NCBI GenBank assembly: GCA_964036295.1
Contig: OZ038463.1
Location: 15,212,069-15,276,068 of the forward strand
Source: Plumapathes pennacea
Taxonomy: Eukaryota; Cnidaria; Anthozoa; Antipatharia; Myriopathidae
Direction of reading: 5' to 3'
Length of the DNA stretch: 64,000 nucleotides
Notes under the pieces: model-generated
What the model was told of the DNA's origin: nothing
The model's database searches: none
The model's input: only the letters and a program-made list of their open reading frames with translations
Part shown: piece by piece, positions 2,109 through 30,334 of the stretch
Layout: the number at the start of each line of letters is the position of its first letter
Position numbering within the stretch: the stretch's first letter is position 1
Position numbers and translations under genes: made by a program

Positions 2109-5100
2109 TCATGGCTTTGGAAAAGGAGTCACATCTTCTCCCAGGAGAACAAAAGGAGCCCAGTAGCGGGGATGGTGGAATTTCTTGTATTCTCTTACGT
2201 CCTTCATAGCTTGATTGAGTGCCCCATTTGCACTTTCGCCATTCTTAAGGTACTCGTAGAAACGAGACATAAAACACGTAGTGGCCCCATCGTCAACCGC
2301 CCACAATGTTACAAGAACAGCTCTAGCTCCAGCTCCGAGAAACGCACGAGCTATACCGACTACTCCCTCTCCTTCCATGACGTCACCACATCCACTGTGA
2401 CAGCAACTAAGAACAACCAGCTTTGCCTTGATCCGTTTGCGTTCGAGATCGGAAATAAGAAGCATGAGATCAGCAGCTTGAGGAATTTCAGGCATTTCAG
2501 GAGAACGGGCAAGCAAGATCTCTCCCCTATCTTTATTTCCGTGTGCTGCAACATGAATTAAACTGGCACTTTCAACTCTCCGTAGAAACCTCTTTTTGGT
2601 CGCCTTATTCCCCACAAGTGGCTTAACGTGGAGAATTTCACTGATCAATTCCACTTCTTTCATTGCGAATGGTAGTCTTGGCGCAGTAATAACTTTACCA
2701 TCCTTCCACACTTTGCCCACTTCTGGCTCTCCCACTATTAAGGGTCTTGCCTGGCCTGACAGTACCTCAACCGGGTGTTCTTTAATCATCTTTGCTGTTG
2801 TTAGAGATGGAATTAGTCTCACTCGTAACGATTCTCCCACGTAGTGTCCGTTCTTATCCTTGAGGGCGGCAAATGGAACCAGAGCGAGTCTTCCATCAGG
2901 AACGATAATTAACTGAGACCCCACCACATGTTGTCGAACAGGCTCCAGAAGAATCTGGTAAAGAGCTTTCAGCAAAGCGTTCATTTCTAAATCATCCGGC
3001 TCTTTAGAAGACCCCGCGGATACCGTCCTACTGCCCACACCCTGTTTTTGCGCAGATGCGAATAGTGGGGACCCGGGCTGAGATGAAACTAATTCTTGAA
3101 CTCTTCGATCGACAGGCTTGGCGGCACGAGCTAGTACCCATTCTGATTTCTTCTTAAAGGGTCTCGACAATTCTTTTGGGTAAAGAAACGATAGTGAGCG
3201 ATCTTCGCACCTGGCATTCTTACTTGGTTGTATGGACTCTACAGCCTTACTAATAAGAGAATCCAAATCCTCAGTACAAGTTTTGTGATGAAACAAAACA
3301 TCTCCATTTGGCTGAATGACCCAAGTACAAATATCACGGCTAAGTAACGCAAAGAAAAGGACCGTACTTCCCAGAGTATTGACCACCTTACAGGCTTTAT
3401 TGAGATCTTCAATCCTGGATTTCCACTTGACGGGATCGGTGGACATCAGGTCAACTAAAGCTCTTGAACGCCCGTTTTCAGAAACAATTAGAGCCTCACC
3501 CTTTTTCTTTTGATACAGAAGGGTTTTAACCAAATGTTTATACGTCTGCACAAACTTCTCGATGAAAGTAACTTTATATTCATCCCAGTTGGGCACAGCT
3601 TCCAGCAGTTTAAAGTAGCACTTTACACTTTCCCTTAAATTGCTTTCAGCATCACCATACTGGCCGATAAAGTCGTAAGAAGCACCAAGGTTGGCATAAG
3701 CTCTTCCTTCTCCATTTTTGTCTCCAATCTCTTTTGCGGTAGTAAGGCACATTTTCTGGTATTCAATACCCTGGTCGTACTGGCCGAGAGAGCTATAGGA
3801 AACACCAAGGTTGCCATAAGCTGTTCCTTCTCTATTTTTGTCTCCAATCTCTTTTGCGATAGTAAGGCACATTTTCTGATATTCAATAGCTTGGTCGTAC
3901 TGGCCGAGAGAGTCATAGGAAACACCAAGCTTACCATAAGCTGCTCCTTCTCCATTTTTGTCTCCAATCTCTTTTGCGCTAGCTAGGAAAATTCTCTGAT
4001 ATTCAATAGCCTGGTCGTACTGGCCGAGAGAGTTATAGGAAACACCAAGGTTGCCATAAGCTCTTCCTACTCCCCTTTTGTCTCCAATCTCTTTTGCGAT
4101 AGTAAGGAACATTTTCTGATATTCAATAGCTTTGTCGTACTGGCCGAGAGAGTCATAGGAAACACCAATGTTGCCATAAGCTCTTCCTTCTCCATTTTTG
4201 TCTCCAATCTCTTTTGCGATAGTAAGGCGCATTTTCTGATATTCAATAGCCTGGTCGTACTGGCCGAGAGAGTAATAGGAAACACCAAGGTTGCCATAAA
4301 CTGTTCCTTCTAGCTTTTTGTCTCCAATCTCTTTTGCGATAGTAAGGCACATTTTCTGATATTCAATAGCTTTGTCGTATTGGCCGAGAGAGTGATAGTA
4401 AACACCAATGTTGCCATAAGCTGTTCCTACTCCCTTTTTGTCTCCAATCTCTTTTGCGATAGTAAGGCACATTTTCTGATATTCAATAGCTTTGTCGTAC
4501 TGGCCGAGAGGGCAATAGGAAACACCAAGGTTGCCATAAGCTGTTCCTTCTCCATTTTTGTCTCCAATTTCTTTTGCGATAGTAAGAAACATTTTCTGAT
4601 ATTCAATAGCTTTGTTGTACTGGCCGAGAGAGTCATAGTAAACACCAATGTTGCCATAAGCCCTTCCTTCTCCATTTTTGTCTCCAATCTCTTTTGCGAT
4701 AGTAAGGCACATTTTCTGATATTCAATAGCCTGGCCGTACAGGCCGAGAGATTCATAGGAAACACCAAGGTTGCCATAAGCTGCTCCTTCTCCATTTTTG
4801 TCTCCAATCTCTTTTGTGATAGTAAGGCGCATTTTCTGATATTCAATAGCCTGGTCGTACTGGCCGAGAGAGTTATAGGAAACACCAAGGTTGCCATAAG
4901 CTGTTCCTACTCCTTTTTTGTCTCCAATCTCTTTTGCGATAGTAAGGAACATTTTCTGATATTCAATAGCTTTGTCGTACTGGCCGAGAGAGTAATAGGA
5001 AACACCAAGGTTGCCATAAGCTCTTCCTTCTCCATTTTTGTCTCCAATCTCTTTTGCGATAGTAAGGCACATTTTCTGATATTCAATAGCCTGGTCGTAC

Positions 5101-6302
5101 TGGCCGAGAGAGCTATAGGAAACACCAAGGTTGTCATAAGCTGTTCCTTCTCCATTTTTGTCTCCAATCTCTTTTGCGATAGTAAGGCACATTTTCTGAT
5201 ATTCAATAGCTTGGTCGTACTGGCCGAGAGATTCATAGGAAACACCAAGGTTGCCATAAGCTCTTCCTTCTCCATTTTTGTCTCCAATCTCTTTTGTGAT
5301 AGTACGGCACATTTTCTGATATTCAATAGCTTTGTCGTACTGGCCGAGAGAGTAATAGGAAACACCAAGGTTGCCATAAGCTCTTCCTTCTCCATTTTTG
5401 TCTCCAATCTCTTTTGCGATAGTAAGGCACATTTTCTGATATTCAATAGCTTGGTCGTACTGGCCGAGAGTGTTATAGGAAACACCAAGGTTGCCATAAG
5501 CTGTTCCTTCTCCATTTTTGTCTCCAATCTCTTTTGCGATAGTAAGGCACATTTTCTGATATTCAATAGCTTGGTCGTACTGGCCGAGAGATTCATAGGA
5601 AACACCAAGCTTACCATAAGCTGCTCCTTCTCCATTTTTGTCTCCAATCTCTTTTGCGCTAGTAAGGAACATTTTCTGATATTCAATAGCCTGGTCGTAC
5701 TGACCGAGAGAGTTATAGGAAACACCAAGGTTGCCATAAGCTCTTCCTACTCCCTTTTTGTCTCCAATCTCTTTTGCGATAGTAAGGCGCATTTTCTGAT
5801 ATTCAATAGCTTTGTCGTACTGGCCGAGAGAGTCATAGGAAACACCAATGTTGCCATAAGCTGTTCCTTCTCCCTTTTTGTCTCCAATCTCTTTTGCGAT
5901 AGTAAGGCACATTTTCTGATATTCAATAGCCTGGTCGTACTGGCCGAGAGAGTTATAGGAAACACCAAGGTGGCCATAAGCTGTTCCTACTCCATTTTTG
6001 TCTCCAATCTCTTTTGCGATAGTAAGGCACATTTTCTGATATTCAATAGCTTTGTTGTACTGGCCGAGAGAGTCATAGGAAACACCAAGGTGGCCATAAG
6101 CTGTTCCTTCATTATTTTTGTCTCCAATCTCCTTTGCGATTGCAAGGCACAGCTGAAAATGTTGTATAGCCTTTTTGTACTTTCCAGTAGAATGGTAATG
6201 AAAACCAATTTTGTTGTGAACTTGTATTAATAGTTTTGATTGCTTGTTCCTAAGCTGCTCCACGAACTCTAAGGAGTTGGGGATCGAAAGCAGTTCTTCC
6301 AT
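2109..6302 (-). CDS. TPR-CHAT protein (tetratricopeptide repeats plus caspase-like CHAT domain)
   Basis: This is one uninterrupted frame of 1397 residues. Residues ~1-40 form a divergent N-terminal cap. Residues ~41-880 comprise 22 units of 40 residues with the pattern AYGNLGVSYxSLGQYDxAI then EYQKMxLTIAKEIGDKxGEG, a Kinesin-light-chain-like TPR. Residues ~880-1140 are a linker, and ~1150-1395 a CHAT domain ending in YWAPFVLLG. The CHAT dyad is visible as H1254 in HVAAHG and C1301 in LSCCHSG, so the peptidase fold looks catalytically competent. In the family the TPR solenoid binds partners and CHAT acts as a caspase/gingipain-like cysteine protease; the substrate here is unknown. An AG at the end of TTATACAG just upstream (about 6317) could be a splice acceptor with the frame open through it, so the ATG at 6302 may not be the real start. 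Such genes are expanded in cnidarians. Confidence 0.9.
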   Translation of the reverse strand: MEELLSIPNSLEFVEQLRNKQSKLLIQVHNKIGFHYHSTGKYKKAIQHFQLCLAIAKEIGDKNNEGTAYGHLGVSYDSLGQYNKAIEYQKMCLTIAKEIGDKNGVGTAYGHLGVSYNSLGQYDQAIEYQKMCLTIAKEIGDKKGEGTAYGNIGVSYDSLGQYDKAIEYQKMRLTIAKEIGDKKGVGRAYGNLGVSYNSLGQYDQAIEYQKMFLTSAKEIGDKNGEGAAYGKLGVSYESLGQYDQAIEYQKMCLTIAKEIGDKNGEGTAYGNLGVSYNTLGQYDQAIEYQKMCLTIAKEIGDKNGEGRAYGNLGVSYYSLGQYDKAIEYQKMCRTITKEIGDKNGEGRAYGNLGVSYESLGQYDQAIEYQKMCLTIAKEIGDKNGEGTAYDNLGVSYSSLGQYDQAIEYQKMCLTIAKEIGDKNGEGRAYGNLGVSYYSLGQYDKAIEYQKMFLTIAKEIGDKKGVGTAYGNLGVSYNSLGQYDQAIEYQKMRLTITKEIGDKNGEGAAYGNLGVSYESLGLYGQAIEYQKMCLTIAKEIGDKNGEGRAYGNIGVYYDSLGQYNKAIEYQKMFLTIAKEIGDKNGEGTAYGNLGVSYCPLGQYDKAIEYQKMCLTIAKEIGDKKGVGTAYGNIGVYYHSLGQYDKAIEYQKMCLTIAKEIGDKKLEGTVYGNLGVSYYSLGQYDQAIEYQKMRLTIAKEIGDKNGEGRAYGNIGVSYDSLGQYDKAIEYQKMFLTIAKEIGDKRGVGRAYGNLGVSYNSLGQYDQAIEYQRIFLASAKEIGDKNGEGAAYGKLGVSYDSLGQYDQAIEYQKMCLTIAKEIGDKNREGTAYGNLGVSYSSLGQYDQGIEYQKMCLTTAKEIGDKNGEGRAYANLGASYDFIGQYGDAESNLRESVKCYFKLLEAVPNWDEYKVTFIEKFVQTYKHLVKTLLYQKKKGEALIVSENGRSRALVDLMSTDPVKWKSRIEDLNKACKVVNTLGSTVLFFALLSRDICTWVIQPNGDVLFHHKTCTEDLDSLISKAVESIQPSKNARCEDRSLSFLYPKELSRPFKKKSEWVLARAAKPVDRRVQELVSSQPGSPLFASAQKQGVGSRTVSAGSSKEPDDLEMNALLKALYQILLEPVRQHVVGSQLIIVPDGRLALVPFAALKDKNGHYVGESLRVRLIPSLTTAKMIKEHPVEVLSGQARPLIVGEPEVGKVWKDGKVITAPRLPFAMKEVELISEILHVKPLVGNKATKKRFLRRVESASLIHVAAHGNKDRGEILLARSPEMPEIPQAADLMLLISDLERKRIKAKLVVLSCCHSGCGDVMEGEGVVGIARAFLGAGARAVLVTLWAVDDGATTCFMSRFYEYLKNGESANGALNQAMKDVREYKKFHHPRYWAPFVLLGEDVTPFPKP
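3661..6180 (-). repeat. 120-bp coding tandem repeat, 21-22 units, inside the TPR-CHAT gene
   Basis: The landmark tggccgagag (with rare single-base variants) recurs every 120 bases exactly from 3661 to 6061, and a diverged unit starts at 6181. No indel breaks the register. Units differ by only a few bases each and share synonymous sites, which points to recent unit duplication and/or gene conversion. All units are read in one frame as 40-residue TPRs. The other frames and the opposite strand stay open only because the unit itself lacks stops there. Confidence 0.97.
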
Positions 6303-10800: not shown

Positions 10801-12642
10801 TTATAAAAGATTTAAAAAGGATCTTAAATTTGTCTGACTTCTAAGGTCATTCGATAGGTTATTCCAGAGAACCGCCCCTCTATAATGGAAGCTATGTTTC
10901 CCTGCTTCAGTGTGTGGTCTTGGTACAAATATGTTATATGATGAGTTTCTTAAATTATAGCAATGTACAGAGTTTGTACTATCAAAGATTTGGGTCAAAT
11001 AGTTTGGTACAATTTCATTAATTGACTTGTACATTAATATAGCTAACTGTTTTGACCTTCCTGTCCCAAGATTATCCCACTTTAGTTCATCCAGTATGTC
11101 AACTGACCGCCTATCATAATTTGAGAGGGTCACCACCCTGGCAGCTCTGTTTTGGAGGGTTTGTAGTTTGTCAGCCATCCCTTTCGCACAGCTTCCTCAT
11201 ACTGAACTACAGTAATCGAAATATGGTAGTACAAGAGAGCTGTACATCGTGAGTAATGTATCATATGGTACAAGATGTCTGACACGCCTTAGAGCTCCAA
11301 TCCCCCCTGATGCTTTCTTTAAAATTTTGTCTAGTTGCTCCTTCCAAGTTAATGATTGGTCTATCTCAACTCCTAGATAATTATATGTTGTTTCCCTTAG
11401 CAGGGGTTTGTGATCTACCAGTACTTGAAACTGATGCTCAAGATGCTTTATCTTATATTGACTAGCTATTATCATATATTTTGTCTTGACCACATTCAGG
11501 CTCAGTTTATTTGCTTTTAGCCATGTATGTACTTTGCATAGGTCATGATTCATCTGTTGTTCTAGTATTTTCTCGTCTGAGTTTGCGATAGTTAAGCTAG
11601 TATCATCTGCATACATCCGTACTTTAGAGTAGAGATCACAATTTGGAAGGTCATTTATATAGATTATAAAGAGTAGCGGACCAAGGATAGAACCTTGGGG
11701 TATTCCACATTTTATTGTACAGCTATCTGACAGCACACCATCAACAAAAGTTTTTTGTTTTCGTTCTGTAAGGTATGAAGCAAACCAGTTTAGGCTTGCT
11801 TGGTCGACACCATAAAGTTTCAGTTTACCTAACAGAATTTTGTGGTCCATGGTGTCAAAGGCCTTTTTTAGGTCCAGAAAAATAACTCCGTTTAGAAGAC
11901 CCTTATCTATATTTTGGTACCAGTCATTTGTGGCATCTAGTAGAGCCGTCAATGTGGAATGTAGGGGTCGGAAACCTGATTGTGAATCTGTAAGTATGCC
12001 ATGTTCTGTAAGATAACTGTAAAGTTGGTTAAAGATAATCCTTTCTATGAGCTTAGTGACAGCTGGCAGAACTGAAATAGGTCTATAATTATCTGGAATG
12101 CACTTCTTATCATCTTTGTATAATGGTGTCACTCTAGCAATTTTCCAATCATTTGGGAAGGTCATAGTTCTAATAGAAAGGTTAAATAAAAAGGTAAGAG
12201 ATGGGGCTATTATTGTGTCTGCCTCCTTTAACAGCCTAGTGCTGATACCATCTAAACCGCAAGCTTTATTTGTTGGTAGAGCTTTTATCAACTCAATAAC
12301 CTCTGTATTTGATGTCTCTTTAATACTGAAGGAGTGTTCAGTAGGAGTGATATAGTTTGAGAACTGCCTTGAAGAGGGTGGCAGTCGAGAAGCTAGCTTT
12401 GGCCCAATTTCAGTAAAATGGGAGTTTAGAGCATTACTGATTTCCTCTGGGGTAGTATGGTTTATATCATTATATATGATATTTTTAATAGATATTGTAT
12501 TAACTCTGCTGCCCAGTAAGTTATTAATGCCTTTCCATGTTTGTTTTATATTCTTAGAATTTTCTCTGAAGTACAAATTATAGTATTCCTCTTTAGCAGA
12601 TTTAATACTATAATTGACTCTATTTTTAATATGTTTATACTC
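10801..12642 (-). pseudogene. reverse transcriptase part of the non-LTR element (premature stop)
   Basis: RT motifs appear in order: YRPISVLPAVTKLIERIIF, then SGFRPLHST, then FLDLKKAFDTMDH (motif A Asp), GIPQGSILGPLLF (motif B) and MYADDTSL (motif C, catalytic DD). A C-terminal region ending NLRSFLNLL follows, with its stop at 10801-10803. The frame from 12642 is open to a TGA at about 11197. It then continues in the same frame as GSCAKGMADKLQTLQ, so one point stop separates the two halves. In related elements a Trp is usual at this position. The N-terminal linker to the endonuclease is cut at 12642 by the inserted DNA element. Confidence 0.9.
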
Positions 12643-14905: not shown

Positions 14906-15067
14906 AAGAGAGCTCCAGTTGCACAAAAATATGGCCATACATTTATCAAGTATGGCTTAAACATGGCCATGTAAATGCCATAAAAGAACCATATTGTGCC
15001 CATATATATTTCCATATGAAACCCATATCAGGCCCATATATGGTCCATACTACTTTTTTGGTAAGGG

Positions 15068-15991
15068 CAACCAACTGTTTCCTGTATTGAGCCTTTTAGC
15101 TATCCTCTTTATCTTATCCCTTTCAAACATGTCGAGGCTTTTAAGTTCTGATGTTAACCAAGGGGTTGGCTTGGCTCGTACCCTTTTGCGTCTTAGTGGA
15201 GCATGATGGTTACAAACAGAAAGGAAAGTTTCTTTCCATGTTTGCCAGGCAAAATTGGGATCGTTGTAATTTTCTATATTTTCCCATGGGATCAACATAA
15301 GATCCTCCCTAAATCTATTTTGATCAAAGTTTCTATATTGTCTTGATTCAATGATCTTAGGACTCGACTTCAGGGACGGTATTTTTCGTATAGCATATAT
15401 TAGATTATGATCACTGATACCAATCTCTGATACTCCATGATGAGAAAATTTCGCAGTTTCATTTGTCAAAAAAAGGTCTATTGTGGTAGATGTCTCTTTT
15501 GTGACTCGTGTTGGCTGTCTTATAAGCTGCTGGTATTGGAGAGTATTGCATATTTCAAGTAATCGTGATGTATGGTGGTCATAGGGAGTGGCACTAACAT
15601 CGCAGTTTAAATCACCAAGAATGTTAACTTCAATCTCTTGTGATTCTAGTTTTTCTAGGAGGCACTCAAATGTGTCCATCAAATTTATTTGTGAGCTTGG
15701 GGGCCTATACCATGTTGCAATTAAGAAGGGTTTGGCTTTTGGTTTCTTGATTTTAACACAGAGCCATTCCAGGTCTAGCCCACTCAGAGTTAGTGTGTTA
15801 TCACAATCGTAATCAATAACATTCCTGATGTATAGTGCCACGCCCCCTCCATTTCTATTTCGGTCCTTTCTTTCAAGCACATAGCCGGGTATACTCATTT
15901 CTTCGCTACTAATACTGTTATCCAGGCGGGTTTCATTTATAGCAAGAACATCCACTGGTTTAGTGAGCATATAATAATAGTGGAACTCCAA
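15068..15991 (-). pseudogene. endonuclease domain of the non-LTR element
   Basis: An APE-type endonuclease with VDVLAINETRLD (metal-binding Glu), GGGVALYIRN, ATWYRPPSS, VNILGDLNCDV (active-site Asp/Asn), TTIDLFLTN and GISDHNLIY (catalytic Asp-His). The domain is near complete. Its expected N-terminus is lost or diverged upstream of 15985. Read-through into the inserted DNA element gives a false end (WLPLPKK) at 15050. The true downstream continuation resumes at 12642. Confidence 0.9.
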
Positions 15992-18963: not shown

Positions 18964-19210
18964 TTACTGATCCGGCGGATGTGTCACACAATCTCCTTGT
19001 TTTGGATCCAGAATTTCTCCGACAAGGTGGAGTATGGCTCTACCATAGGCACTATCTTCTACAGGCAAGTCATGTGATGTCAACTCATACCATGTGATAA
19101 AGTCGTTCTCTCGACAGAACTCGTTCATTTCTTCTGCGCCCCCGAACATCTTCTCTGATCCAACCCCGTGGAATGTTGCACAAGGTGAATATTTTTGGAT
19201 AATGTCTTTC
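18964..19210 (-). pseudogene. truncated Rab32-like pseudo-GTPase fragment
   Basis: The minus-strand frame from about 19170 to the stop at 18964 matches the last 60-66 residues of the gene at 23221-23982. It has FCRENDFITWYELTSHDLP, EDSAYGRAI and GEILDPKQGDCVTHPPDQ. Upstream, about 45 bases present in the intact copy are missing. A short matching stretch (KDIIQKYS equivalent) then ends at 19210, where an unrelated repeat begins. It is a dead 3' fragment left by the segmental duplication and a later insertion or deletion. Confidence 0.9.
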
Positions 19211-20068: not shown

Positions 20069-23000
20069 AGTTTTTATCACATATTCATATCGTTCATACT
20101 AAGTTATACACAGAAACATGTTGATACAGAATTTTTATAAAAAAATGACGGAGATAAAAGTTGCGAAAGACGCGTTCCAGAGCGAGTTGCGTGCGGTTTT
20201 TCAGGACGTTTATCTGTTGGAAGGCGTAAAAAAGGTGTGAATTTCTACAAGACGTATATGAAAGGGTTACCATTTCACGGGCGGAGCCTCCACGTCTAAA
20301 AATTCTTGTGCCTCCCCCCCCCCCCCCCCCCCCCCCCCGCGACTTCTGCAGCGAGTTTCACTATTTGCGACCTCCATAAGGGGGAAACCCTTAGAGAACT
20401 TGTGGTTTTCTTTCAAAACAGTAATGTTGCATCACGCCTAAAATGGCAAATATTCTGCCCGTAATTTGTGTACGTCAAATGCGCCCACCTCCGGGGGAAA
20501 CCCTTTGAGAACTTGTGGTTTGCTTTCAAAACAGTAATGTTGCATCACACCTAAAATACCTCATTGTAATTTCTGTGAAGTTGGCTAAATCAAGTTTCGG
20601 CTATTTGCGAAATAAAGAATACAATACTAAGAAGAAGAAACATGAATAAGAATCAAGAAAAAATAACGCTCAAGGAAACATGAACCAATGTCAGTTAAAT
20701 ATCAAAACTGAAATAGTTTAAGTAAGATCCGCAAATTTCCAGTGACCTGGAAAATCCCCTGGTATTACATATTATCAGAGAGCACATCAACTAAAGCTTT
20801 ACGTGGTCGTCGCCGATTCAGTCAAATTTTTGAGATGTTCGAGTCGAAACGAACAGGCTATGCATTTTGGGCGAGTTCATCCAGTCATGCCACTCTTCGC
20901 TTCTTTTGTATATTACTTGTTTGATGCGCACAGAAACCCTTCGATATCATGTCAGGGTTTTACGTGCCAAACTAAAATACTCACCTTTGCAGAGGTTTAT
21001 CCCGATTTTCTGTCAATTACAGAATGACACGTTGGGTACAAACACTGACCGTTATACATGAATTGAGCTGATAGGTTCGTTTATATTTTCTGTCCAAAAC
21101 ACTTCCGCCTGATCGTCAATTTCATTTTCGAACAATGACGTGTGCGACACATGTCAATCACTCAGGGTGTGGTGTGTTGTATCTCGAAATAAATCGGGGA
21201 GGGACCTGAGTCTTGGGTGATCAGTCGTGATGTGGTATATTCTTAGTCAGGGCGGCTCCACTGCGATGCGGCGCATGTATTCCTCATAACTGTTCCAAAA
21301 TATTTAGTGATGTGTTATATTCCTGGCCAGAGATACTCTACAGCGATGCATCGCATGTAACCCTCATAAATTAACTGCTCCCTGACTTCAAACAGTCGCA
21401 GTGCTGAGTGGTTTTCTATGGATGGTAGTTATCAAGCGATCACGCGACCGCAACACCCTGGTTGACTCCAGAAATGAATCCCACATGAAAATGACGGGGA
21501 TGATCGTCGGAAATTTTTGTTTTGACCTCTAAGATGAAATGGGCGCGGCTCGAGCTTATTTTGATTCCTAAAAGGTAAAAGTAGAAGTATAGGAATACAA
21601 TAATGTTTATTTGACTGAAACCAGACCTCTAAACGGTACCACGTCACATAAAAATGTCAGCTTTTCATGGTGAGCACCCTAAGCGGTACCAAAATCCGTG
21701 ATTTTGACTCAGAGTTCCAACGAGCGTCCCCTTCCTTTCTTATATGGGACTAACCCCCCCCCCCCCCCCCCCCTCGGGAGAAAAACATTATAATTTAGAC
21801 CACAAGCATCGATTTTAGAGGACCACAAGCGTGACACACCGCTCTATTGTCACAAGGTGTTCAAACGTCCATAGTTCCCGATAGAGGCTTCGTATCGACC
21901 CAGAATGTTGCCGTAAATGCTTAACACATTATAATCTTGAAACTGTCAGTGTATCAGGCTTGTAGGATGCGTATTGTCTGAGATTTTTGATGATGTCATT
22001 ATCTAATTTTCGTACACAAAATGCACTTTCAGAATCAGTGAAAAATCGACATGATTTAAACATTACCCGAAATGCGCAAACTTAGATTTAGTAACTGTTT
22101 AAAGTCAGGGAGCAGTTAATATTATAAAGAATATTATCAAGCGTGTTCTTTGGTTGGAGATGGCTATGGAACAGGACTGAGATGTCGAGCTATGCTGCCA
22201 GAGCGGGCACCGGACTGCGCATGACTACGCGTATGAGTCTACTAATCGTGTTGACATTTAGCGCCACAGAGCATTCGAGACCCTTGCTGGTTCAAAGTTA
22301 AAGTTTGCTGTGTTCCAAATCTATATCTCTATCTATTTATACCGAACGCACCCTAAAAGAGGAAGATGTCCTCCAGAGAAATGTTTTAACTCTCGTTGGA
22401 TGGCTGCCATGCGCCCCAGAGGAATTAAGCACAAATGAGACAATACACTTTGATCAGAAAAAGGCAAGCACAGTTAGTTGTGACAGATCCGAGGGGATAT
22501 GTGTATATTGGGAGAGCGGCAGGTGCTTCAAAATTTCATTAAACTCTTTTCGTCTAGCTATGCATAGAACTGAGTGATCCCGCCCTCTCAAATCCAAACA
22601 CCGAGCAGATCCCCCGCCCCGAAATCCTCCGCCTCATCCTCCATCCCCCGGCTCAACCAGGACACAGAAACGCAGATAAAAGTGGCTCACCCTTTAATTA
22701 AGGTGCTCTCAGTGCAAACATTAAATACATACGCACGGCGAAATCAATGAAGAACAGCCGAAGAAACGGCAATGAAACTAAGTATCAAGAAATCATATTC
22801 AACGGTATATAAGATGAATACAGCTTATATAGAATCAGTGACTTGTTAAACTTTGCATAATTCACTAGTGAGTAATGAGTTGCTCGTTATTATACCCAGG
22901 GCTCGGAGATTAACTAAAGTTATCTCTCAACTTCTTGATCAGCAAACTGGTAGAGCTTTTATCAAAGACTAACTAAAACCTTGTTCAAAACGAGGCAAAG

Positions 23001-23503
23001 CTGCATTGGCGATTTCGTGTTGTAAACGAAACTTTCTCATCTTCATGCTTTAAAATGCCACACAAGTTTAGACCTTATTTACGATCAATTAAAGGATCTT
23101 AGAATAACCGGGCCTACAAAAAAGTAAATCATTATGGATACGTCAAGTTCAGTGGTACAAATACGGATCGAGTCAAGTATCAAAAATCCTTTCAGTGGCG
23201 ATCATAAATCTCTGATCAGGTTACTGATCCGGCGGATGTGTCACACAATCTCCTTGTTTTGGATCCAGAATTTCTCCGACAAGGTGGTGTATGGCTCTAC
23301 CATAGGCACTATCTTCTACAGGCAAGTCATGTGATGTCAACTCATACCATGTGATAAAGTCGTTCTCTCGACAAAACTCGTCCATTTCTTCTGCGCTCCC
23401 GAACATCTTCTCTAATCCAATCCACTGCTCATTTCTTGGGTTGTCAGTAATGAGGATTAGTGGAAAGTTGTAGGAAGGTGAATATTTTTGGATAATGTCT
23501 TTC
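20069..23503. repeat. segmental duplication, copy A2
   Basis: Partner of 16201-19210. It contains an extra block at 20305-21252 (starting with a poly-C run at about 20310-20338) and an expanded poly-C at about 21757-21773. It merges at its right end into the intact pseudo-Rab gene at 23221-23982. Confidence 0.9.
20305..21252. other. block present only in A2; no gene recognised
   Basis: About 950 bp between ctaaaaattc and gctccactgcg, which are adjacent in A1. It starts with a long poly-C tract and has an internal imperfect duplication of gaacttgtggtttgctttcaa-type sequence (about 20395 and 20510). The frames at 20742-21061 have no recognisable domain. It is either an insertion in A2 or a deletion in A1. 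Confidence 0.6.
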
Positions 23504-23982
23504 CAGGCTAATGCCTCCCCCAGGGAATTTGATCGCTCGGGGCCCCAGAAAATAAAAGCTCCTTGAATCTGTCCAAAAATCCTGAACATTGCAGAAATAT
23601 GTCTTTGCACAACAGTTTCCCAAAATTGAAGAAAACGTGACTTTTTCTCTGGGTCTGTGTCATCCGTTTGCCATTCTATTCGACGCTGACAAAATTTCGC
23701 ACCAGCAAGCGGACTGAAGTGCACTAGTGCGGTCCCTGTCCGCATGTACTCTGAAATAGTCATGTTGTGGATGCTTACAGTGCTCTCGGCACCACCAACA
23801 TGGATGATCGATAGTAAATAGGCCCCTTTCTCGTCTCTCGGTACTTGAGGGATGTTCGACTTGAATGTCTTCATTTCTACTTCCGGCCCAAGGGTCCGCA
23901 AAATATCTGAACTCTCTTCCTCCGGTTTGTGGTAATTTACATCATTTTCAGCTGATGAAGTGATTTCAAATCGTCTGAACAT
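23221..23982 (-). CDS. Rab32/38/29-like pseudo-GTPase, paralogue B
   Basis: An intronless 253-residue frame; the ATG has A at -3. Residues ~1-55 are an acidic N-terminal extension (MFRRFEITSSA, LGPEVEM) shared with C and D. Residues ~56-242 align to the Rab32-family G domain. Key blocks are RIEW, FLQFWETVVQ at the G3 position, GAFIFWGPERSNSL, LILITDN at G4 and DEFCRENDFITWYELTS at G5. The P-loop reads HVGGAESTVSIHN with no GK(S/T), G3 lacks DxxGQ, and G4 lacks NKxD. GTP binding is therefore unlikely. The tail GDCVTHPPDQ has no C-terminal prenylation cysteines. This is the most diverged of the three minus-strand copies. Its upstream 180 bp resembles that of C and D, consistent with tandem duplication including the promoter. 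Confidence 0.8.
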   Translation of the reverse strand: MFRRFEITSSAENDVNYHKPEEESSDILRTLGPEVEMKTFKSNIPQVPRDEKGAYLLSIIHVGGAESTVSIHNMTISEYMRTGTALVHFSPLAGAKFCQRRIEWQTDDTDPEKKSRFLQFWETVVQRHISAMFRIFGQIQGAFIFWGPERSNSLGEALAWKDIIQKYSPSYNFPLILITDNPRNEQWIGLEKMFGSAEEMDEFCRENDFITWYELTSHDLPVEDSAYGRAIHHLVGEILDPKQGDCVTHPPDQ

Positions 23983-25791
23983 TGTGCTTGTTGTTAGGCT
24001 TTGAGATCGTTGAATTCCTTTGATAATGTAACTGAAAGTACAGTACTATGGCGAAGGGAGCGAAGTGCGTATTGACCGCGAGGGGTCTGGTGATTATCCC
24101 GGCCAACGCACAACACCAGGAGCCGACAACACTTAGACCCCGCTTGGTTGTCATGGGGACCATGGGCATCCCCTCCCTAACCAACTTTATGAGGCATTCT
24201 TAAAATGGAAGAAAAATAAGTACCACCAGCCCCTACTAGCAAACGCATGGTGATTTGAAGGGCAACCTTGTTTCCAGGGCCTTTTCCTTTTGTTTTGAAT
24301 GGTAAACAAGAAGAAAAGGCCCTGGGAACGAGATTTAATAAAATGTGTAATTACATCCAGCTGGGACTCGAGGCTACATGTCTCTAAGATGCATCATAAT
24401 ACACTCTTTTGGGTAGTATTATGCCAGAAAACGGTACACTTAAAATTGAAATAAAGTCTATTATATTTTAGAATACCACAAAGCTGATTTTTTTGCGCAA
24501 CTGACAAAATCGTTTGCAAAATACGTTTGATGCGTTTGATTCGATGTGTTCGTTTACTAAACAATGACATTTTATTTATCTTTCTTGTCGGGAACCATTT
24601 GAACTGAAAATTTGATAATTTAGAGACTGGGGACATTTCAGACCCGGGATTTCAGACCAGAGGGGGACTTCAACCCGGGCCTAAATGTTCGGGGGTAGGT
24701 CGGCCATGTGAATTTGCGTCCATCCGAGCGGGACTGGAGCTGAGGGTAAAATATATTGGTTTTTCGGTCGTCTTGGACGTTTTAGATCGCCTTTGGGAGC
24801 GTGTGAGCTATCTCTTCTCGCGGAACTACCCAAGAATTCCTCCGGCTTATTCCCTCAATGCTTCGCTAAAAGTTTGCTGCGTTTCCTCGTCCAAGTCCTC
24901 GTGGAATCGTCGTGACGTCACCGGAAGCAAAGCGTGGGCAGTCAAGTGTTGCAGCATTCCTAGTAGGTGATTGCCTAGCGCCCCAGAGAAAAAGGCGACT
25001 AAGTACCAGTAAATTGCGATTTTGATTCCGCTTTGCCGCCCTAGTATATTTCAGCTCGTGTCTGGAATTATCCGTGGTGTATCACTTTTAGTTTACAATT
25101 GGTTGGCCATTAGTTTATTTTCTATTATGATCTTCCATAGTTGCTATCCATGCACTTTGACTGGAATTGCCTGCCAACATATAGTGCAGAATTAGCGTTA
25201 GTCAGATCTTTGTGTAATTGGTGTAATACGGTAAATGAACAGCTGTGCGATTTGTTCATATTTACCACAGAGGCAGGTTTGAAGTCATGCCAACCGAAGT
25301 CCGTCGCACATACGGACGGCAAGTTAGTGGTCGCTTCCTTGATCTGGTCACTAATAAATGGTTAATCAGTAGCACAATCTTCATGTTTTTGGATCTAGAA
25401 TTTCTCTGTTTTTCTTTTTTTTTTGTTTGTTTGTTTTTTGTTTTTTGTTTTTTGTTTTTTTTTGCACAAGCCACGCCTTCTAATACTGACCTGGCAAAGT
25501 TTTCATCGACTGAACAAACTAAAAATCTTCTTCTAGGCAAGACTACACGGACGATTTCGTGTTCATAAACAAAACTTTCTCATCTTTAGGCCATAAAATG
25601 CTACTACAACAGTTTAGACCTAATCCAGGATCATTTGATGGAGCTTTGAAAACCCGGGCCTAGGGCCCTGGGGCTGTCAGTAAATTGTTATGGCTGCCAC
25701 GGATCGAACTGTCAAACCGAAAACACCTTGACAATGACAACAGTATTATTATCTGATCAGGTTACTGATCTGGCCCATCTGTCACACAATC
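23983..25791. other. spacer between pseudo-Rab copies B and C, with duplicated segments
   Basis: 24040-24170 is the shared upstream block also seen before C and D (attgaccgcgaggggtctgg). 24720-25020 matches 26971-27127 and 29095-29330. 25021-25790 matches 27128-27916, including a T-rich ttttgttttttg tract near 25410-25460. Nothing coding was recognised. Confidence 0.7.
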
Positions 25792-26535
25792 TTACTGTTT
25801 TAAATCCAGTATCTCTCTGACAAGGCGATGCACGGCCCCACCAAACACACTGTCTTCTCCAGAGTCCCAGTCACGTGACGTCAACTCATACCACGTGATG
25901 AAGTCGTGCTCTCGACAGAACTCGTCCACTTCTTGTGTGCTCTTGAATATTTCTCCCGGTCCAATCCACTGCTCCTGCCTTGTATTGTCAGTAATGAGGA
26001 TGACTGGTATATTGTAGAAGGGTAGTGTATATTTTTGGACACAATCTTTCCATACTAATGCCTCCTGCAGGGAGTTTGATCGCGTGGGGCCCCAGAAAAT
26101 CAACGCTCCTTGAGCATCTCTAAAATACACCCTGCACATTCTAGAAAAGTGTTCTTGCTCAGAAATCTCCCAAAACTGAAGCAAGATTGGGTTTCCATTT
26201 GGGTCTGTGTTATCCGATTGCCATTCTATTCGATGTAGACGAAAGTCCGCATCAATAAGAGGATGACTGTGCATTCGTAGGGGCCTCGTCCGCATGTAGT
26301 CTGAAACAAGCAAGCCTTTTGTGTCTACCCCTTCAGTGTAACCACCAACACAGAGGATCTTCAGTAGATAGTCCCCTTTCTCGTTTCTCATTACTTCTTG
26401 ACGGACATTCGACTTAAATGTCCTCATTTCTACTTCCGGCCCAAGGGTCCGCAATAAGTCTGAATTTTCTTCCTCCGGTTCGTGGTATTTTATATCATTT
26501 GCTGCTGATGAGGTGGTTTCAAACCGTCTGAACAT
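25792..26535 (-). CDS. Rab32/38/29-like pseudo-GTPase, paralogue C
   Basis: An intronless 247-residue frame. The N-terminal extension covers residues 1-55. The G-domain-like part covers 56-243: LCVGGYTEGVDTKG at G1 (no GKS/T), DADF at the switch I core where Rabs have GVDF, FWEISEQEHF at G3, FRDAQGALIFWGP, VILITDNT at G4, and DEFCREHDFITWYELTSRD at G5. These blocks align closely with Rab32/38/29 (for example the FCKEHGF and WFETSAKD region), but every nucleotide-contacting motif is altered. It ends LDLKQ without cysteines, so no Rab-type prenylation. It is identical to D over residues 137-247 and differs at 15 earlier positions. A coding, non-GTPase scaffold or decoy role is inference. Confidence 0.85.
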   Translation of the reverse strand: MFRRFETTSSAANDIKYHEPEEENSDLLRTLGPEVEMRTFKSNVRQEVMRNEKGDYLLKILCVGGYTEGVDTKGLLVSDYMRTRPLRMHSHPLIDADFRLHRIEWQSDNTDPNGNPILLQFWEISEQEHFSRMCRVYFRDAQGALIFWGPTRSNSLQEALVWKDCVQKYTLPFYNIPVILITDNTRQEQWIGPGEIFKSTQEVDEFCREHDFITWYELTSRDWDSGEDSVFGGAVHRLVREILDLKQ

Positions 26536-27916
26536 TGTGCTTGTATATAGTTAGGCTTTGAGAATCGTTGAGTTCATTTGATACTGTAGAGTGAAAGTAC
26601 TGTGACGCAGCGAACGAGCTTTGTATTGACCGTGTGGGGTCTGGTGATTATCCTGGCCAACTCACAAGTCTACGGTAAGTCTTAGACACCGCTTGTGCGT
26701 AGATTGTCATGGAAACCAGGGGAACCTTTACCAAACCAACTTTTCAAAGCGTTCAAAAATTTAAGTCAGTCTCAATGAGACGACACCACGGACGAATTTG
26801 ACGGAGAGAGTCTGGCAGGAGTAAAATGATAGAGACAGTCCGTAGTATTTCTGGTAAATATATGCTATGAAAACTCGTCCCCCATGCGAGGCACAAGTAA
26901 CGTTCAAGCGATCATCAAATAATCGACCAACTATTTTTCAGTCAACGGCAGTCCTGGTCTGCATGCCAACTAATCCACCCGAGCGGGACTGGAGGCGAGA
27001 GACGTTTTTCTTTCGGTCTCTGGGACGTTTTAGATTGCTCTTGGAAGCAACGTATGAGCTATATCTTTTTGTCTAAGAATTGCTCTGGCTCCTTCCCTCA
27101 ATGTCCCGCTAAACGTTTTCTGCGTTTTTTGATTCCGCTTTGCCGCCCTAGTATATTTCAGCTCGTGTCTGGAATTATCCGTGGTGTATCACTTTTAGTT
27201 TACAATTGGTTGGCCATTAGTTTATTTTCATTTTGATCTTCCATAGTTGCTATCCATGCACTTTGACTGGAATTGCCTGCCAACATATAGTGCAGAATTA
27301 GCGTTAGTCAGATCTTTGTGGAAATTGGTGTAATACGGTAAATGAACAGCTGTGCGATTTGTTCATATTTACTACAGAGGCAGGTTTGATGCCAACCGAA
27401 GTCCGTCGCACATACGGACGGCAAGTTAGTGGTCGCTTCCTTGATCTGGTTACTAATAAAGGGTTAATCAGTAGCACAATCTTCATGTTTTTGGATCTAG
27501 AATTTCTCTGTTTTTTTTTTGTTTGTTTGTTTTTTGTTTTTTGTTTGTTTTTGTTTTTGTTTTTGTTTTTGTTTTTGTTTTTTGTTTTGCACAAGCCACG
27601 CCTACTAATACTGACCTGGCAAAGTTTTCATCGACTGAACAAACTAAAAATCTTCTTCCAGGCAAAACTACGCGGACGATTTCGTGTTCATAAACAAAAC
27701 TTTCTCATCTTTAGGCCATAAAATGCTACTACAACAGTTTAGACCTAATCCAGGATCATTTGATGGAGCTTTGAAAAACCGGGCCTAGGGCCCTGGGGCT
27801 GTCAGTAAATTGTTATGGCTGCCACGGATCGAACTGTCAAACCGAAAACACCTTGACAATGACAACAGTATTATTATCTGATCAGGTTACTGATCTGGCC
27901 CATATGTCACACAATC
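26536..27916. other. spacer between pseudo-Rab copies C and D
   Basis: Contains the conserved upstream block (26620-26720), the P2 segment (26971-27127) and a near-identical copy of 25021-25790 at 27128-27916. It includes a T/G-rich tract near 27510-27590 with ttttgt pentamer/hexamer slippage. No gene was recognised. Confidence 0.7.
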
Positions 27917-28660
27917 TCACTGTTTTAAATCCAGTATCTCTCTGACAAGGCGATGCACGGCCCCACCAAACACACTGTCTTCTCCAGAGTCCCAGTCACG
28001 TGACGTCAACTCATACCACGTGATGAAGTCGTGCTCTCGACAGAACTCGTCCACTTCTTGTGTGCTCTTGAATATTTCTCCCGGTCCAATCCACTGCTCC
28101 TGTCTTGTATTGTCAGTAATGAGAATGACTGGTATATTGTAGAAGGGTAGTGTATATTTTTGGACACAATCTTTCCATACTAATGCCTCCTGCAGGGAGT
28201 TTGATCGCGTGGGGCCCCAGAAAATCAACGCTCCTTGAGCATCTCTAAAATACATCCTGCGCATTCTAGAACAGCGTTCTTGCTCAGAAATCTCCCAAAA
28301 CTGAAGCAAGATTGGGTTTCCATTTGGGTCTGTGTTATCCGATTGCCATTCTATTCGATGTAGATAAAAGTCCACACCAACAACAGGACGACTGTGCATT
28401 CGTACGGGTCTCGTCCGCATGTAGTCTGAAACAAGCAAGCCTTTTGTGTCTACCCCTTCAGTGTAACCACCAACACAGACGATCTTCAGTAAATAGTACC
28501 CTTCCTCGTTTCTCATTACTTCTTGACGGACATTCGACTTAAATGTCCTCATTTCTACTTCCGGCCCAAGGGTCCGCAATAAGTCTGAATTTTCTTCCTC
28601 CGGTTCGTGGTATTTTATATCATTTGCTGCTGACGAGGTGATTTCAAACCGTCTGAACAT
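27917..28660 (-). CDS. Rab32/38/29-like pseudo-GTPase, paralogue D
   Basis: 247 residues, intronless, colinear with C. G1 is VCVGGYTEGVDTKG (63-74 region) and the switch I core is VVGVDFYL (93-100). G3 is FWEISEQERC (121-130), where Rabs have WDxAGQERF. G4 is ITDNT (181-185), and G5 is TSRD (219-222). The switch I core GVDF and the ER after the altered G3 are closer to canonical Rab32 than in C. The rest of the domain is the same as C. There are no C-terminal cysteines. Its promoter side faces the divergent paralogue E across 885 bp. Confidence 0.85.
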   Translation of the reverse strand: MFRRFEITSSAANDIKYHEPEEENSDLLRTLGPEVEMRTFKSNVRQEVMRNEEGYYLLKIVCVGGYTEGVDTKGLLVSDYMRTRPVRMHSRPVVGVDFYLHRIEWQSDNTDPNGNPILLQFWEISEQERCSRMRRMYFRDAQGALIFWGPTRSNSLQEALVWKDCVQKYTLPFYNIPVILITDNTRQEQWIGPGEIFKSTQEVDEFCREHDFITWYELTSRDWDSGEDSVFGGAVHRLVREILDLKQ

Positions 28661-29545
28661 TGTGCTTGTATATAGTTAGGCTTTGAGAATCGTTGAGTTC
28701 ATTTGATACTGTAGAGTGAAAGTACTGTGACGCAGCGAACGAGCTTTGTATTGACCGTGTGGGGTCTGGTGATTATCCTGGCCAACTCACAAGTCTACGG
28801 TAAGTCTTAGACCCCGCTTGTGCGTAGATTGTCATGGAAACCAGGGGAACCCTTACCAAACCAACTTTTCAAGGCGTTCAAAAATTTAAGTCAGTCTCAA
28901 TGAGACGACACCACGGACGAATTTGACGGAGAGAGTCTGACGGAGCAAAATGATAGAGACAGTCCGTAGTATTTCTGGTAAAAATATGCTATGAAAACTC
29001 GTCCCCCATGCGAGGCACAAGTAACGTTCAAGCGATCATTAAATAATCGACCAACTATTTTTCAGTCAACGGCAGTCCTGGTCTGCATGCCAACTAATCC
29101 ACCCGAGCGGGACTGGAGGCGAGAGACGTTTTTCTTTCGGTCTCTGGGACGTTTTAGATTGCTCTTGGAAGCGACGTATGAGCTATATCTTTTTTGTCTA
29201 AGAATTGCTCTGGCTCCTTCCCTCAATGTCCCGCTAAAAGTTTTCTGCGTTTCCTCGCCCAAGTTTCTTGTAAAAACGTCGTGACGTCACCGGAAGCGAA
29301 GCGTGGGCAGTCGATGTTGCAGCATTCCTAGTGGTCAAAGCGCGGGCAATGATTTGATATGCATGTACAATGACGCTGTTTCTCTCGTGAGAATGTCGTC
29401 TTAAATTAACACTATCCAGTCTGCGTAACACTTACCCAATATTACGAGACAGGTCAAGGAGATAGCGGAGATTCGTACCTGGAGACATGATCAGCTAGTC
29501 AAAGAAGGGCGAGTTCACGATACCTCGCAGGAGAGCACAGACACG
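28661..29545. promoter_or_regulatory. divergent intergenic region between pseudo-Rab D and E
   Basis: 885 bp separates two head-to-head genes. The D side contains the block shared upstream of B and C (attgaccgtgtggggtctgg). The middle contains segment P3 with a CRE-like TGACGTCA near 29282. Whether this is a shared bidirectional promoter is inference from the geometry only. Confidence 0.4.
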
Positions 29546-30334
29546 ATGCTCTCAAATTTGGGAACCGACGAGATAACTAGAAATGATCTAAATCTGGCCG
29601 CCGAAGAACACGAACCCGGAGATCCGTCAGAGGCTTTAGACCCGGAAGTTTTGGCCACTCATCATCAAGAAGGAATCGATGATTTATACGATAACGAGAA
29701 ACTGGAAGAAAAGAAATGGGACTTGTCACTGAAAATCATCTGCGTTGGTGGCTACACGGGAGCAGCCGACACGAAGGGATTGCTAATTAGGGACTACATG
29801 AGGACAAGACCCGTATTACAACACTCCAACCCGCTCATCGGCGTAAAGTTCTTGTGTCATGGGATTCAATGGCCGCCTGCAAGTGACTCTTCGCACGACA
29901 AAGGAAGGGCGGTCATGCTTCAGCTTTGGGAGATACCTGAACAGGAACGTTTCCGTTCAATGGCACGGTTTTACTACAGAGACGCTTGCGGTGCGCTAGT
30001 TTTCTGGGGACCCAAGCGACCGACTTCCTTGCAGGAAGCTGTAGCGAGCAAAAACGACATCCTTCAACAACAAACATCTGGTTCTCCTACATTACCTATT
30101 GTCCTTGTCACTGACAACACAAAACGGCAACAGTGGGTTGGGCCGCGTAAAATATTCGAGAACACACAAGAAGTAGACGATTTTTGTCGAGAGCACGACT
30201 TCCTCACATGGTGCGAGTTGACATCACGTGACTGGGACTCTGGGGAACACAGTGTATTGGGCCAAGCTGTGCATAAAGTTGTGACAGAGATTTTTAAACG
30301 TGGAATTAGTTTCTCCAGATCTCAACGGTCATGA
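29546..30334 (+). CDS. Rab32/38/29-like pseudo-GTPase, paralogue E (divergent)
   Basis: An intronless 262-residue frame. The N-terminal acidic extension (1-60) is unlike B-D in detail but similarly rich in Glu/Asp. The G-domain-like part starts at LKIICVGGYTGAADTKG (G1 without GKS/T). It continues with NPLIGVKF (switch I), LQLWEIPEQERFRSMARFYY (G3; Rab has DxxGQ), RDACGALVFWGP, VLVTDNT (G4, no NKxD), DDFCREHDFLTWCELTSRD (G5) and AVHKVVTEIF. The QERF-SM-R-YYRDA block is the closest of the cluster to real Rab32/29. It ends SRSQRS with no prenylation site. It may be nearest the ancestral pseudo-Rab form. It is probably a separate gene rather than an exon: the frame has its own stop and no splice signals are needed. 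Confidence 0.82.
   Translation: MLSNLGTDEITRNDLNLAAEEHEPGDPSEALDPEVLATHHQEGIDDLYDNEKLEEKKWDLSLKIICVGGYTGAADTKGLLIRDYMRTRPVLQHSNPLIGVKFLCHGIQWPPASDSSHDKGRAVMLQLWEIPEQERFRSMARFYYRDACGALVFWGPKRPTSLQEAVASKNDILQQQTSGSPTLPIVLVTDNTKRQQWVGPRKIFENTQEVDDFCREHDFLTWCELTSRDWDSGEHSVLGQAVHKVVTEIFKRGISFSRSQRS

Follow-up and report, generated by a model that had tools for sequence, protein, structure and literature searches.

The window analyzed here, a 64,000-nucleotide stretch of the Plumapathes pennacea genome (290 Mb in 24 contigs), sits on a contig of 37.9 Mb and carries a small array of genes related to Rab32. Four intact pseudo-Rab32 ORFs lie within it. Paralog B (23221..23982, minus strand, 253 aa) is a more diverged member with 60% identity to D. 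Paralogs C (25792..26535, minus strand, Pfam Ras 5.6e-9) and D (27917..28660, minus strand, matching Rab32 5oed with an E value of 3e-19) each encode 247 aa, and paralog E (29546..30334, plus strand, 262 aa), on the strand opposite to B, C, and D, has its closest relative, P0001, in another species. A fifth copy, F, lies on the minus strand about 15 kb past the right end of the window (L005:1468-2211). The array genes are apparently intronless, judging from open reading frames as long as those of their relatives. Two further whole-genome searches found no other clusters, returning weak Rab-like matches only, and the copy counts given here are lower bounds.

C and D occupy adjacent units of about 2.1 kb (25020..27127 and 27127..29252) that stand head to tail and are 96.3% identical, and their divergence was computed base by base. 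An older version of the unit is present at B, and 24719-24964 matches stretches upstream of both C and D. The array has also lost or truncated copies: segment 17654-19166 is 96.3% identical to 21921-23423 but holds the 3′ end of B alone, making it a truncated duplicate (the B-like fragment, found by tblastn, is at 18997..19209, minus strand), and a second fragment, with stops, lies to the left (L006). The probable history is one recent 2.1-kb tandem duplication that gave rise to C and D inside a small array of pseudo-GTPase genes derived from Rab32/38. We consider it very unlikely that C and D are instead alleles of a single locus misassembled in tandem, with allelic variation between them. 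The roughly 1.5% divergence of their flanks would fall within the range of heterozygosity, but the units abut head to tail in a window that contains no N, B has its own older copy of the unit, and the concentration of diversity described below would still need explaining.

Elsewhere in the window, a 1397-aa ORF (2109-6302, minus strand) encodes a long series of 40-aa TPR repeats and then a CHAT domain (Pfam CHAT 5e-57), and its DNA matches itself at steps of about 120 bp. The ORFs at 11197-12576 and 15050-15991 (both minus strand) appear from their translations to resemble the reverse transcriptase and endonuclease of non-LTR retrotransposons.

Kinship with Rab32 and loss of GTPase features

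Both sequence comparison and the predicted model of D place these proteins in the Rab fold with specific similarity to Rab32, Rab38, and Rab29, and the best PDB matches of the model are Rab32 chains, so this kinship is well established. The loss of the nucleotide-binding motifs is equally clear. None of 80 family members has the P-loop (GxxxxGK[ST]), the G3 motif (WDxxG[QL]), or the G5 motif ([ST][SA][AC]K), which are present in 4/4, 4/4, and 3/4 Rab controls, respectively. The G4 motif ([NT]KxD), accepted at any position in the sequence, occurs in seven of the 80 (two fast and five F-type members, as defined below) and in 4/4 controls, and is absent from C and D. A cysteine in the last four residues is found in 3/80 members, none of them with a double cysteine, and in three of the four controls; C and D end in DLKQ. 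To judge from their sequences, C and D are Rab32/38-like proteins without nucleotide motifs or a prenylation tail, and as such they should not act as GTP-driven membrane switches.

A predicted GTPase fold together with lost nucleotide-binding motifs makes these proteins putative pseudoGTPases. They differ from Rab32 and Rab38 in lacking the nucleotide motifs and the double-cysteine tail and in being encoded by one open ORF. The likely true Rab32 gene of this genome (G000 C10:3693317-3694918), unlike the single-ORF pseudo-Rabs, matches in four pieces with 42-77% identity to P0079. PseudoGTPase domains such as those of p190RhoGAP and the septins, as described in the parts of the papers available (PMC5593906, PMC10731463), likewise join a GTPase fold to degenerate nucleotide motifs; unlike these, which belong to larger proteins or to filament subunits, the pseudo-Rabs are free-standing, duplicate in tandem, and have a fast-changing switch face. 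Pervasive tandem duplication has been reported in corals in a paper whose accessible text contains no word beginning with Rab- (PMC10236652), and we found no earlier description of a cnidarian pseudo-Rab family in a literature coverage that omits most subscription papers.

The differences between C and D and the neutral rate

The initial annotation reported that C and D are identical at residues 137-247 and differ at 15 residues before them, and comparison of the two ORFs bears this out: the differences, out of 247 residues, are at 7, 53, 55, 61, 86, 91, 93, 94, 95, 96, 99, 129, 130, 134, and 136. Eight nonsynonymous changes and one synonymous change had been counted in 54 bp; both counts are correct and in fact fit within 45 bp (CDS nt 252-296), and four further nonsynonymous changes lie at CDS nt 386-406. 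The last ~330 bp had been described as nearly free of change and silent where changed, and there are indeed two silent changes in 336 bp (nt 537 and 558), but a difference in the stop codon (TAA/TGA) had been missed.

With the published limits of the Rab32 switches (I, 48-61; II, 84-97; available text of PMC4059916) and D aligned to human Rab32 (5oed, residue numbers as in the accessible part of PMC5752668), switch I corresponds to codons 84-97 (26245..26286 in C and 28370..28411 in D, both minus strand) and switch II to codons 126-139 (26119..26160 in C and 28244..28285 in D, both minus strand). The proposed placement of the first group of differences in switch I is right, with residue 93 on T57 and residues 95 and 96 on G59 and V60, except that residue 99 (A63) lies two positions beyond switch I. 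Those assigned to switch II do lie there, with residues 129, 130, 134, and 136 of D on R87, F88, T92, and V94. The predicted model agrees with the Rab32 alignment that these positions are switch-equivalent. In this AlphaFold2 model (mean pLDDT 77, with 61 and 79 in two ten-residue blocks around switch I), residues 86, 91, and 93-95 lie in the loop preceding strand 96-105, residues 96 and 99 where that strand begins, and residues 129, 130, 134, and 136 in short helices (126-130 and 134-138).

The clustering is firm: ten of the 15 differences fall in the 28 of 247 positions aligned to the switches (hypergeometric P 1.4e-7), or ten of 12 when only the G domain is considered (P 5e-8), with the reservation that all P values for C/D carry ascertainment because the pair was noticed for this very pattern. 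Only 72 of 24310 pairs of 14-residue windows match or exceed the switch count, and a scan statistic for nine changes in a single 45-bp window gives P of about 1e-4.

An excess over the neutral rate is also established. The DNA flanking the two genes is 1.4-1.6% diverged when counted to about nt 1050, where we chose to end the main neutral 3′ flank; the repeat-rich 3′ stretch past that point is more diverged than the other flanks. Flanks and silent sites outside the switches together give 18 changes in 1025 sites, a rate at which 1.17 nonsynonymous switch changes are expected and ten are observed (conditional binomial P 3.5e-6). Adding the repeat-rich stretch (32 changes in 1380 sites) raises the expectation to 1.55 (P 1.7e-5). 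Within the switches themselves, the ratio of nonsynonymous to synonymous changes is 10:1 for 66.8:17.2 sites, which taken alone is not significant (P 0.31).

In the 111 codons for residues 137-247 there are no nonsynonymous changes against about five expected (P 0.007), and silent divergence is near the neutral level; the numbers are small, and they indicate purifying selection on the C-terminal half rather than recent homogenization. Neutral change in decaying copies under relaxed constraint is accordingly a very improbable account. Loss of the nucleotide motifs would be in keeping with it, as would the gene death that the 3′-end fragments record in the array, but the ORFs are intact, and we disfavor it because the C-terminal half is constrained and the switch changes stand about eightfold above the neutral rate.

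In a codon model of B, C, D, and E, the switches evolve with an omega of 7.9 along the C and D branches and of 0.76 along the others (2dlnL 19.4 for letting the two differ). The foreground value exceeds 1 with 2dlnL 17.5 (P 2.8e-5), and none of 64 null simulations with foreground omega 1 reaches the observed value, the largest statistic being 8.2. Taken across all branches of the B, C, D, E tree, the switches have an omega of 1.08, which does not significantly exceed 1 (P 0.72). Pairwise, the switches of B-C and B-D have dN of 0.55 and 0.57, dS of 0.23 and 0.25, and dN/dS of 2.4 and 2.3; in the rest of the G domain, dN is 0.28 for both, dS is 0.48 and 0.47, and dN/dS is 0.57 and 0.59.

These results, with the recurrence at the protein level described below, support the part of the original proposal that invoked diversifying selection, although a local increase in rate fits C and D almost as well: giving the C and D branches a 10.7-fold local rate in place of selection, with omega left as it was, costs just 1.6 lnL units. 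A mutation hotspot in the switch-coding DNA, acting without selection, would have this signature, and in comparisons with E, silent divergence in the switches equals or exceeds that of the other regions, though saturated (17-19 sites). We nevertheless regard a hotspot as improbable. Two separate segments are affected with 28 codons between them, silent sites of B and C have diverged less within the switches than across the remaining G domain, and the F type, like several fast pairs, has switches that hardly vary.

The other part of the original proposal, conversion from a paralog, finds no support among the present copies in the genome, as neither B, E, nor F supplies a tract. A run-length permutation test on the codon alignment with B, E, and F as donors detected no shared gene-conversion tract at the switches; the shared runs with low P lie elsewhere (B-C and B-D at codons 28-37, C-E and D-E at codons 221-225). 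At the 21 sites that differ between C and D, matches to B, E, and F alternate between the two. Sites with agreement among B, E, and F, or between B and E, place the derived state in C at some positions (D95, the first base of R99, L86) and in D at others (V93, C130, E53, Y55). Short conversion or recombination tracts from a diverged paralog or allele, possibly lost or unassembled, could still have replaced the switch segment in C, D, or both, a reading we rate as rather unlikely. A tandem array should be a good substrate for such exchange, the C/D changes are clustered, the local-rate model fits nearly as well as the selection model, and P0003, P0004, and P0005, which come from one or more other animals and whose pattern is nearest to that of C/D, also have indel differences in switch I. 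The alternating matches and the derived states on both copies speak against such tracts, and no additional full-length copy was found in the genome. Both a hotspot and conversion from an absent donor fit C and D almost as well as selection does, and they are opposed mainly because F is conserved.

Recurrence across the family

Family members with named hosts come from hexacorals (Montipora, Stylophora, Desmophyllum, and Nematostella). Our tree contains 80 members with four Rabs as outgroup; P0052 (a fused gene model), P0077 and P0078 (partial), and P0079-P0101 except for the four Rabs were left out of it, and the rate comparison omits P0076. In this tree the F-type members make up a clade of 21, in which F clusters with P0063 and P0054 alongside a larger clade, and switch I (limits 84-99 and 125-137 for the two switches) changes at 0.013 per site and lineage there versus 0.236 in the 58 fast members. 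Across the entire fast clade, the rate of the switches (0.23-0.24) is not unique and hardly exceeds that of loop 100-118, the N-terminus, and residues 156-176 (0.20-0.22).

Sister pairs were then compared, those from other species at the protein level only, and excluding pairs with short coverage or a divergence above 0.40 in the rest of the protein left 25 fast and ten F pairs. By the published limits, 218 of 924 G-domain differences in the fast pairs lie in the switches versus eight of 196 in the F pairs (P 3.9e-12, with differences treated as independent). With our own limits (84-99, 125-137) the counts are 226/1139 in 24 fast pairs and 7/297 in ten F pairs. A switch excess at P<0.05 occurs in 13 of the 25 fast pairs and in none of the F pairs, and the remaining 12 fast pairs show none. 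Recurrence at the protein level is thereby established; the pattern is statistically strong in C and D and recurrent, not universal, in the family.

Nine fast pairs outside the window have contigs of matching length and are therefore probably genomic neighbors, and seven of them have the excess (P0020/P0039 and P0030/P0033 do not). Within the window it is present in B-C, B-D, and C-D and absent from B-E, C-E, and D-E. Among 27 pairs of our choosing, P0003/P0004 (P 1.2e-5) and P0003/P0005 (P 8e-5) have an excess like that of C/D, and these pairs were not picked for the C/D pattern; no excess was found in P0016/P0018, P0015/P0019, P0007/P0014, P0011/P0012, or E/P0001. P0087, of 121 aa, has a start nearly identical to that of P0003 and P0005 and loses register inside switch I, and indels may occur there.

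A face that is conserved in some lineages and changing in others is compatible with selection for new partners acting episodically. Heterogeneity among 24 fast pairs (published limits) is clear, being reached by seven of 20000 simulations, but becomes weak (798 of 20000) when C/D and P0003/P0005 are removed, so that the argument for episodic change leans on those two pairs.

Possible role of the former switch face

Rab32 is a GTPase of phagosome and lysosome-related-organelle defense. Several of its interface residues are known: V60 and V94 contact VARP (PMC4059916, as far as its text is available), and a Salmonella protease that targets inactive Rab32 binds a surface with I58, G59, V60, and F88 and cuts between G59 and V60 (from the available part of PMC5752668). 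Between C and D, the residues matching I58, G59, V60, F88, and V94 (94, 95, 96, 130, and 136) all differ, while those matching D61, F62, W80, and Y95 are the same. Accessible passages of the literature further describe pathogen effectors that target Rab32 at switch I (PMC5752668, PMC5927477) and restriction of intracellular bacteria in mammals by Rab32 with BLOC-3 (PMC5927477). For cnidarians, a Rab32 gene appears in a heat-bleaching expression study whose authors, in the text available, suggest relevance to symbiosome upkeep (PMC6643889), and the Rab32 pathway has been proposed as relevant there in the available portion of a second paper (PMC7563517).

We think it probable, on balance, that positive selection re-tooled the vestigial switch face of a Rab32 mimic that is no longer a GTPase, with a change of partner and, more hypothetically, a decoy role as possible consequences. 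C and D would keep the Rab fold, with the C-terminal half under purifying selection, and would expose the former switch I, interswitch, and switch II face as a static surface for binding. Positive selection after the duplication would have altered this face in both copies, after which each may bind a different partner or escape one. Their most likely use would be as soluble Rab32 mimics, competitors or decoys for proteins that recognize the Rab32 switch face, whether the animal's own effectors or those of intracellular microbes. Such a decoy or competitor role would fit by analogy, because the changed positions touch Rab32 interfaces, Rab32 restricts bacteria, and a link to the symbiosome has been proposed.

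The IRG proteins, which are not Rabs, offer a precedent for a relative of GTPases whose interaction surface has diversified. The mouse IRG-tandem protein Irgb2-b1 has a G-domain under diversifying selection and is reported to interact with an effector of a pathogen; the available text does not use the word decoy (PMC3810784). Unlike Irgb2-b1, for which a pathogen partner is described, the pseudo-Rabs vary at a vestigial switch face and are candidate decoys only.

A wider and more tentative version, which we hold to be possible though not likely, is that a cnidarian Rab32 gave rise to an expanding array of nucleotide-free mimics whose fast-evolving former switch face serves as an intracellular decoy or sensor for proteins of pathogens or symbionts that attack or recruit Rab32, with the conserved F keeping the ancestral face. 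In a Rab relative that no longer switches yet keeps altering its switch face, recognition would be uncoupled from the nucleotide cycle, and such a protein suggests that cnidarian cell biology has a fast-evolving layer at the Rab32 pathway. The question becomes testable as one of host or microbial binders of the conserved F face versus the variable faces. The F-type P0063 and the E-type P0001 come from contigs of identical length, which suggests that the linkage of these two types is kept in another species.
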